DNA from: Gimesia sp. | Lineage (GTDB): Bacteria > Planctomycetota > Planctomycetia > Planctomycetales > Planctomycetaceae | Length of the DNA stretch: 64,000 nt | Assembly (NCBI GenBank): GCA_002706765.1 | Contig: PAJV01000037.1 | Coordinates: 1-64,000, forward strand | Direction of reading: 5' to 3' | Shown here: positions 52,404 to 54,077 of the stretch, piece after piece | Layout of the letters: each line of letters opens with the position of its first letter | Position numbering within the stretch: position 1 is the first letter of the stretch | Notes under the pieces: model-generated | What the model was told of the DNA's origin: nothing | Database searches by the model: none | Seen by the model: only the letters and a program-made list of their open reading frames with translations | Made by a program: the position numbers and the translations under genes

Positions 52404-53807
52404 TCAAAACGATCGAATGACTTCCATTATTTTATCTAAATCATTCTCAACGACAATAGGTCCGTTGGAAAAAGGTGCTGCGTTGACGCCGTGACTCGAC
52501 AGTTTTTCATCTATATGTTCATCATTTGCAGAATGATAGGCAACGGTGGCATTGGGGTCTTTGAGCTGGTGCCCTGTTAAAATACAGACAACGCGGTCAC
52601 TGGCTGCAATCACTCCTTCATTTTTCAACAGCTTCGCTCCTGCGACGCTGGCGGCACTCGCTGGTTCGCACCCGAATCCACCTGCGCCTACTTGTGCTTT
52701 CGCATCCAGAATCTGCTGATCATCGACTTCACGAACCACGCCGTCACAGACATCCAGAGCACGTAAAGACTTGGAGAAATTCACCGGTCGGTTAATTTCA
52801 ATCGCACTGGCCAAAGTCGAAGCACGACGGTTTTCCGCATCCATTCGCGTAAAATAGTCTGTGGACTGATGACGATCATAATTTCCGCCATTCCAGCGCA
52901 TACCGTGTTGTTCATAGAGTTGATATAATGTATTGGCTCCCTGTGCATTAATAATTGCCAGTCGAGGGATGCGATCAATCAACCCCAGTTGTTTCAACTC
53001 CATAAATGCTTTGCCGAAAGCACTTGAGTTGCCGAGATTTCCTCCAGGTACCACGATCCAGTCTGGAACTTCCCAGTTCAAACTTTCGAGGACCCGAAAC
53101 ATGATCGACTTCTGGCCTTCCAGTCGAAATGGGTTGACACTGTTACAAAGGTAAATTCCTTCCTGGGTACAGACTTCACGTACCCGGGCCAGCGCATCAT
53201 CGAAGTCTCCCTGAATCTGCACCGTCTTGGCGCCATAATCAAGGGCCTGTGATAATTTTCCGAATGCAATTTTTCCACTGCCGACAAATACGACGACTTT
53301 GAATTTCTGTGCGACGCTGGAATAGATTGCCAGGGAAGCACTGGTATTTCCCGTCGAAGCACAAGCAGCCACTTTTGCTCCTACCATGACCGCATGTGTG
53401 GAAGCTGCAGTCATACCGTTATCTTTGAAGCTGCCTGAGGGATTCAAACCTTCGTACTGCAGAAACAGACCATCTTCCTTCAAACCCGTGTAGCGTGCGA
53501 CCGATGGCGATGCCTTCAGCATGGTCTGGCCTTCGCCAATTGTGATAATCTGGTTGTCCCGTGCGAATGGCAATAATTCCCGGAATCTCCAGACGCCACT
53601 GAAATCAATCGGATGATTCCGTGTACTCCAGCGTTTTTCAAACTCGCGCAACGACTGAGGTACCGGAACCTGATCCCAGTGATAAGTCACATCCAGTAAT
53701 TCGCCACACTTGGGACAGCTGGTTAAAACTTCGCCCAGGGAATAGGTCGCCTCACAGGCAGGCGAAATGCATTTCTGGTAAGCAAGTTCAGTCGATACGG
53801 TGGAAAT
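52404..53807 (-). CDS. thrC: Threonine synthase with N-terminal zinc ribbon and apparent ATT start
   Basis: 467 residues if started at the ATT codon at 53807. The first standard start, a GTG at 53690, would leave 428 residues and lose the zinc ribbon. In-frame codons from 53693 up to 53807 give [10 protein letters not shown] and then [10 protein letters not shown], a clean zinc ribbon of the kind seen at the head of planctomycete threonine synthases. GGAG lies eight bases before ATT; a stop follows upstream at 53822-53820. The PLP lysine is Lys128 in Ser-Gly-Ser-Phe-Lys-Asp. It converts O-phosphohomoserine to threonine. Confidence 0.9.
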
Positions 53808-54077
53808 CGTCTTCTCTCCTCAGTTTTTTATGACAGGTTCAATGACAGGAATGGAATGCTGATTCTGTTCTGCAGGCGATATTGTCCTGACCATCACTAC
53901 GATTGGCAACAGAAAGCGTCTGGAATCAAGCCGTTTTTCCCGGAAGTTCGCCTGATAATAAAGGATGTCACGTCTCATCCTTCTTGAAATAATAATTCTA
54001 ACGTCTTACATTGATTTGATTAACAACCTTTTCTATTGATCCGTTCATTAAAACCTCAAAAAGCAGGCAGTACCTCC

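Follow-up and report, generated by a model that had tools for sequence, protein, structure and literature searches.

Conservation of a probable AUU start codon for threonine synthase in Gimesia and related planctomycete genera

Few natural AUU start codons are well known; those met here are infC, pcnB, cvfC1, and Borrelia pncA. infC, the gene for initiation factor 3 (IF3), starts at AUU, AUC, or AUA and is subject to IF3 autoregulation. In E. coli, pcnB is reportedly a second chromosomal gene with an AUU start, which is said to limit its translation. Here, these systems are compared with the Gimesia gene thrC, which encodes threonine synthase, the final enzyme in threonine synthesis. Start codons are referred to as AUH (AUU/AUC type) or NTG (ATG, GTG, or TTG). 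Like infC, thrC has a conserved AUH start with a Shine-Dalgarno match, and infC of the genus itself starts at AUC; unlike infC, thrC encodes a biosynthetic enzyme, so that IF3 control, which is hypothetical, would not feed back on IF3. The AUU start is shared with pcnB, which differs from thrC in gene and lineage.

General background is given in PMC9845219. IF3 represses nonstandard starts, and infC starts at ATT in E. coli and at ATC in Streptomyces (PMC5472188). The GTC start of Streptomyces sigR is conserved, and IF3 represses it (PMC5472188). Like thrC, sigR is a gene other than infC whose nonstandard start is conserved, follows a strong ribosome-binding site, and has been misannotated; it differs in that the codon is GTC rather than AUU and in that IF3 control was shown by experiment (PMC5472188). 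In poor medium, S. aureus genes that start at AUU or AUA behind an extended Shine-Dalgarno motif reach ∼10% of the AUG level, and rich medium lifts the ccpN AUA start to 30% and leaves the cvfC1 AUU start unchanged (PMC13009471). The cvfC1 AUU and ccpN AUA starts resemble that of thrC in being conserved AUH codons with extended Shine-Dalgarno motifs; they belong to other genes and were established by ribosome profiling and reporters (PMC13009471). Finally, pncA of Borrelia starts at AUU; like thrC it encodes a metabolic enzyme, and its database entry lacks the N-terminus owing to the AUU start, but in this different gene the start was shown by biochemistry and a crystal structure (PMC13398362). 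A search of a literature collection found no report of AUU or noncanonical starts in planctomycetes. As judged by title and abstract, no AUU start for thrC or threonine synthase was present among the matches listed, and none of the papers on planctomycete start codons and ribosome profiling dealt with an AUU start of thrC.

The thrC locus and its 5' region

The stretch of DNA analyzed (the window; 64,000 nt) is part of contig C37 of a 7.9-Mb genome whose near relatives are uncultured Gimesia MAGs. The features of the locus are listed in Table 1. The encoded protein scored 220.8 bits against the NCBIfam thrC model TIGR00260 (cutoff, 167.1), which places it among the ThrC proteins, and it contains the Pfam domain PALP. 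The best PDB match was the plant enzyme 1e5x, with 2zsj almost level; of those two, 1e5x aligned the N-terminal segment and 2zsj did not.

Table 1. Features of the thrC locus (window coordinates)
Feature	Position	Strand	Remarks
thrC, threonine synthase	52404..53807	(-)	467 residues from ATT, plus stop codon (52404-52406)
In-frame stop TGA closing the frame 5' of thrC	53820..53822	(-)	Window sequence
Shine-Dalgarno AGGAG	53816..53820	(-)	8 nt before ATT; first base is the last base of TGA
ATT, proposed thrC start codon	53805..53807	(-)	ATT in 16, ATC in 1 of 17 genus genomes
Four-cysteine motif C13, C18, C31, C34	53706..53771	(-)	Putative zinc ribbon by its look; 5' of first standard start
GTG, first in-frame standard start	53688..53690	(-)	Rejected as true start
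Promoter-like TTGCCA-N17-GACAAT	53881..53909	(-)	Ends 73 nt upstream of ATT; conserved block, role inferred

After the TGA, the frame on the minus strand reads GGA GAG AAG ACG ATT TCC ACC GTA TCG, and GGAG (53819-53816) is separated from the ATT by an 8-nt spacer. As originally predicted, no ATG, GTG, or TTG is present from the upstream stop until the GTG at 53690, 39 codons 3' of the ATT, so the stretch up to the cysteine motif is free of standard starts. The intervening codons were also expected to encode an intact zinc ribbon: the four cysteines (numbered from the ATT) are encoded, and the zinc ribbon, recognized by its look only, is putative. Some or all of the four cysteines are missing from ThrC of nine other planctomycete loci (L052, L061, L072, L073, L081, L084, L089, L097, and L100), which retain the surrounding segment; the plant enzyme 1e5x resembles them in both respects.

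Alignment of the 5' regions of 17 Gimesia genomes revealed four conserved blocks: the ribosome-binding site, the promoter-like block (TTGCNN-N17-GACAAT), GGAAAAAC, and a block by the divergent gene. GGAAAAAC (53933-53940, minus strand) lies ∼125 nt 5' of the ATT, is invariant in the 17 genomes, and sits between thrC and a divergent aminopeptidase-like gene at 54036. Inspection of the 17-genome alignment by eye showed no conserved open frame for a leader peptide. An Rfam search of the thrC 5' region gave one match, far below the gathering score, and the window's thrC 5' sequence gave weaker folds than most shuffled versions of it. Given the subthreshold Rfam match and the unremarkable folds of the window sequence, there was no sign of attenuation or of a riboswitch, and a leader peptide or riboswitch at thrC was rejected.

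Conservation of the start site in the genus

A ThrC orthologue was found in all 17 genus genomes, matching from the first residue of the query. The aligned start site was ATT in 16 genomes and ATC in one (L011), and ATG in none. The spacing of eight bases after GGAG, noted beforehand for the window, recurred as AGGAG at 8 nt in 17/17 genomes. None of the 17 contained an ATG, GTG, or TTG between the upstream stop and the aromatic-Q core; the TGA stop was at the same place in 15, and the open frame of the other two (L014 and L016) extends upstream by another 11 codons. Taken by itself, the window would accommodate a point mutation or sequencing error that turned ATG into ATT, the fallback offered with the original prediction. 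This account is refuted by ATT or ATC in every genus genome, with ATG in none, and by AUH starts in 18 more genera (see below), and its probability is negligible.

Translation from the downstream GTG, the first standard start within the window, would leave the cysteine motif unmade. This codon is GTG in just 4/17 genus genomes, GTT or GTC in 11/17, and ATT in 2/17, and across the genus the first standard start 3' of the ATT or ATC is 23 to 95 codons away. Relatives that begin at the GTG position were looked for and not found. In addition, codons 1 to 38 are constrained like codons 39 to 77: variable columns at codon positions 1, 2, and 3 numbered 11, 4, and 34 in the former and 11, 4, and 33 in the latter. 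In an AlphaFold2 model based on 41 sequences (mean pLDDT, 87.6), the N-terminal segment is predicted to be folded, with block mean pLDDT values of 92 to 95 for residues 11 to 70 (92 to 94 for residues 11 to 40) and <50 for residues 1 to 5. The cysteine motif is framed in the model by strands 9-13 and 38-42, and a start at the GTG (residue 40) would cut inside the second of these strands. A start at the GTG is hardly credible.

Readthrough of the TGA from the upstream frame would draw on an in-frame 52-codon ORF (53820-53978) that ends at that TGA in the window. In the gapped genus alignment, however, 43/45 columns vary from −60 to −16, compared to 5/15 from −15 to −1 and 34/75 from the ATT onward. 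Thus, constraint begins at the ribosome-binding site and the coding pattern begins at the ATT. Further in-frame stops are present just upstream in several relatives, and the frame is opened differently in L014 and L016, so readthrough has next to no chance of being correct.

Another nonstandard start nearby, very improbable in our estimate, would be either the ACG that directly precedes the ATT and lies 5 nt after GGAG or an upstream ATT. ACG precedes the ATT or ATC in 16/17 genus genomes, but L005 has ACA, and among the 19 AUH genera described below the codon directly before the start is of 13 kinds. A second in-frame ATT is found two codons upstream in five genomes (L013, L015, L017, L018, and L019), where the same Shine-Dalgarno match, in a weaker register, is 5 nt away; it is missing from the remaining 12. 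The mutated ATG, the downstream GTG, the upstream readthrough, and the ACG start were all rejected. The conserved ATT is the preferred start, and its codon identity can be set beside the 20 sites that are isoleucine in all 17 genomes, of which 5 have a single codon in every genome; the start site has ATT in 16 genomes and ATC in 1.

Other genes of the pathway and genome were also examined. The hom gene, found in 15/17 genomes, reads as starting with ATG in 15/15 loci, and ilvA, whose C-terminal domain was found in 3/17, does so in 3/3; AUH starts throughout the pathway were rejected on these results. A scan for AUH starts took in a 381-kb stretch, ∼5% of the genome, with 166 genes, of which 114 were compared across three genus members and the others across two. 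To be flagged, a gene had to encode 8 or more conserved residues ahead of its first standard start, so that AUH starts with a standard start nearby are missed. Four genes were flagged. Two proved to be conserved leaders shortly 5' of an ATG, one overlaps the end of the upstream gene in another frame, and thrC was the sole remaining gene with a conserved N-terminus lacking a standard start.

Start codons across the order and beyond

The order was searched in 170 genomes, of which 151, covering 55/58 genera, contained a strong thrC orthologue. The 5' ends were read in 90 of these 151 genomes (52 genera); another set of matches, 80 loci, was viewed and is outside the counts. The 90 comprised 39 AUH, 48 NTG, 2 unclassified (L149 and L164), and 1 ambiguous (L151), after hand changes to the automatic classes (L129 from AUH to NTG, its sole match being a weak GTGA; L180 from NTG to AUH; and L151 to ambiguous). 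At the genus level, 19/52 were AUH and 31/52 were NTG, and none of the genera read contained both. One locus was left out of the tables: in L049, from a single MAG, a TAG just 5' of a conserved 12-residue segment breaks the thrC frame before the N-terminus, reflecting either a fault of assembly or a broken gene. In L187 to L191, an in-frame ATT lies three codons before a GTG, neither with a good Shine-Dalgarno match; these loci were classed as NTG.

Twenty-four AUH genomes in eight genera lacked any standard start between the upstream stop and the core: the 17 genus genomes and one genome in each of seven further genera (L114, L142, L148, L150, L161, L171, and L181). These show the two marks of a natural AUU start, a conserved N-terminus without a standard start and a properly spaced Shine-Dalgarno sequence, the latter as a match of 4 to 7 nt at a spacing of 7 to 8 nt in 24/24. 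In the remaining 15 AUH genomes, the match is not independent evidence because it helped to make the call. Over all AUH genomes, the spacing was 8 nt in 30, 7 nt in 6, and 6 nt in 3. Among the NTG genomes, a match 5 to 9 nt before any NTG near the core was found in 3/48, all in one genus with GTG, and a looser rule (4 to 11 nt, longer consensus) raised this to 8/48. Background frequencies in 381 kb of one genus member were 53/145 for genes with a conserved ATG and 170/2,900 for random positions. Thus, the ribosome-binding site ahead of the weak codon is a good one, which is what a true AUU start should show. As a control, these regions were examined for other in-frame AUH codons, 8 of 74 of which had a match; 7 of the 8 share the ribosome-binding site with the chosen start 1 to 2 codons off, and 1 is in the ambiguous L151.

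ATT was also favored over ATC. It was used in 15/19 AUH genera, compared to 5.9 expected from isoleucine usage in the same genes; the observed count was reached in 2 of 200,000 simulations. The sites as scored were 33 ATT and 6 ATC; L169, identical in sequence to L053, was scored as ATC but shows ATT with AGGAG at 7 nt, and counting it as ATT gives 34 ATT and 5 ATC, and 16/19 rather than 15/19 genera.

The AUH codon was 6 to 13 codons 5' of the core, at 9 codons in 24/39 genomes, and is not a single alignment column across genera. The original prediction proposed that an ATG in relatives would line up with the ATT, which held only loosely: standard starts in NTG genera are at varying places, mostly ∼3 to 17 codons before the core, compared to mostly 8 to 10 for AUH. 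The near-constant spacing hints that the AUH start is old and has often given way to standard starts. Outside the order, 40 loci of 55 matches were read, with 38 NTG and 2 AUC (L186 and L198, whose matches both lie at 8 nt). The N-terminus was left out of a ThrC tree of 90 rows (78 from the order, including 5 from the genus, plus 12 others). This tree, made by a quick method and with many weak branches, required 15 AUH/NTG changes, compared to a mean of 24 to 25 after shuffling (0/500 as low), of which the starred branches force 3; on this tree, gain and loss of the AUH start are indistinguishable.

Taken together, conservation in the genus, 18 further AUH genera, the Shine-Dalgarno spacing, and coding constraint before the GTG argue that thrC starts, as predicted, at ATT: AUU at 53807-53805 is almost certainly the start codon. 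Because starts of this kind persist in many related genera, it looks like a retained feature rather than a mutation. AUU is not required for thrC, because 48/90 genomes of the order (31 genera) use ATG, GTG, or TTG.

IF3 and the proposed mechanism

We propose that the AUU is read by initiator fMet-tRNA, positioned by the AGGAG eight bases upstream, and that as a weak start it would be discriminated against by IF3. This explanation as a whole is very probable. ThrC output would then be a fraction of that from an AUG, and it would rise when IF3 activity falls, as for infC. The position of the codon, its conservation, the coding constraint, the Shine-Dalgarno match, and the AUC start of infC are seen in the sequences; lower yield, IF3 sensitivity, and in-cell initiation at the AUU are what we infer, and weak, IF3-sensitive initiation at thrC is probable; physiological regulation beyond constant throttling is doubtful.

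IF3 control of thrC is plausible because infC of the genus starts at ATC, after AAGGAG at 8 to 9 nt, in 17/17 genomes, 7 of which offer no standard start. The sequences are consistent with such control, and the most that the AUC start of infC shows is that an IF3 loop could exist. In the genus infC loci (L225 to L241; in the window's own genome, G000:C13:333424-333921), the ATC lies inside a longer open frame, and start predictors may misplace it. Outside the genus, a scan found a suitable AUH codon with a match in 23/37 infC loci, with L303 (ATA before an ATG) uncounted; several of the remaining 14 have an in-frame ATT or ATC just 5' of the scored stretch. infC starts at ATG or GTG in L303, L305, L307, L309, and L328, and an AUH infC occurs alongside a standard thrC start in a number of genera. 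A simple, strict IF3 loop is disfavored in one genus (g40), where thrC has AUC (L160), because its infC (L305) shows only ATG.

Alternatively, the AUU start may be real with ThrC merely held constantly low and IF3 varying too little to regulate, a reading to which we give slightly better than even chances. Yield could be fixed simply by pairing a weak start with a good ribosome-binding site, and the cvfC1 AUU start in S. aureus shows no medium effect (PMC13009471); an ATG with a weaker ribosome-binding site would do likewise, and nothing here separates throttling from regulation. More speculatively, and rather unlikely on present evidence, infC and thrC would form a small IF3 regulon of the order, old and repeatedly lost, in which the AUU acts as a valve tying threonine synthesis to initiation capacity. 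Initiation capacity would here be the IF3-to-ribosome ratio or the fMet-tRNA supply, threonine synthesis would be the step that takes homoserine away from methionine, and in each loss a standard start would have replaced the AUU, with the Shine-Dalgarno match disappearing as well.

The original prediction also expected automatic gene finders to truncate thrC, which was seen in the mechanical ORF list only; start predictors confined to ATG, GTG, and TTG would misplace the starts of both thrC and infC here. Conserved AUU starts are already known from infC, and thrC, on sequence evidence, adds another that is unusual in its breadth and in being that of an amino-acid enzyme. With this type of start in 19/52 genera and standard starts in 31, this central metabolic gene lends itself to comparative work on why weak starts persist in bacteria and on the number of genes, besides infC, that IF3 controls.
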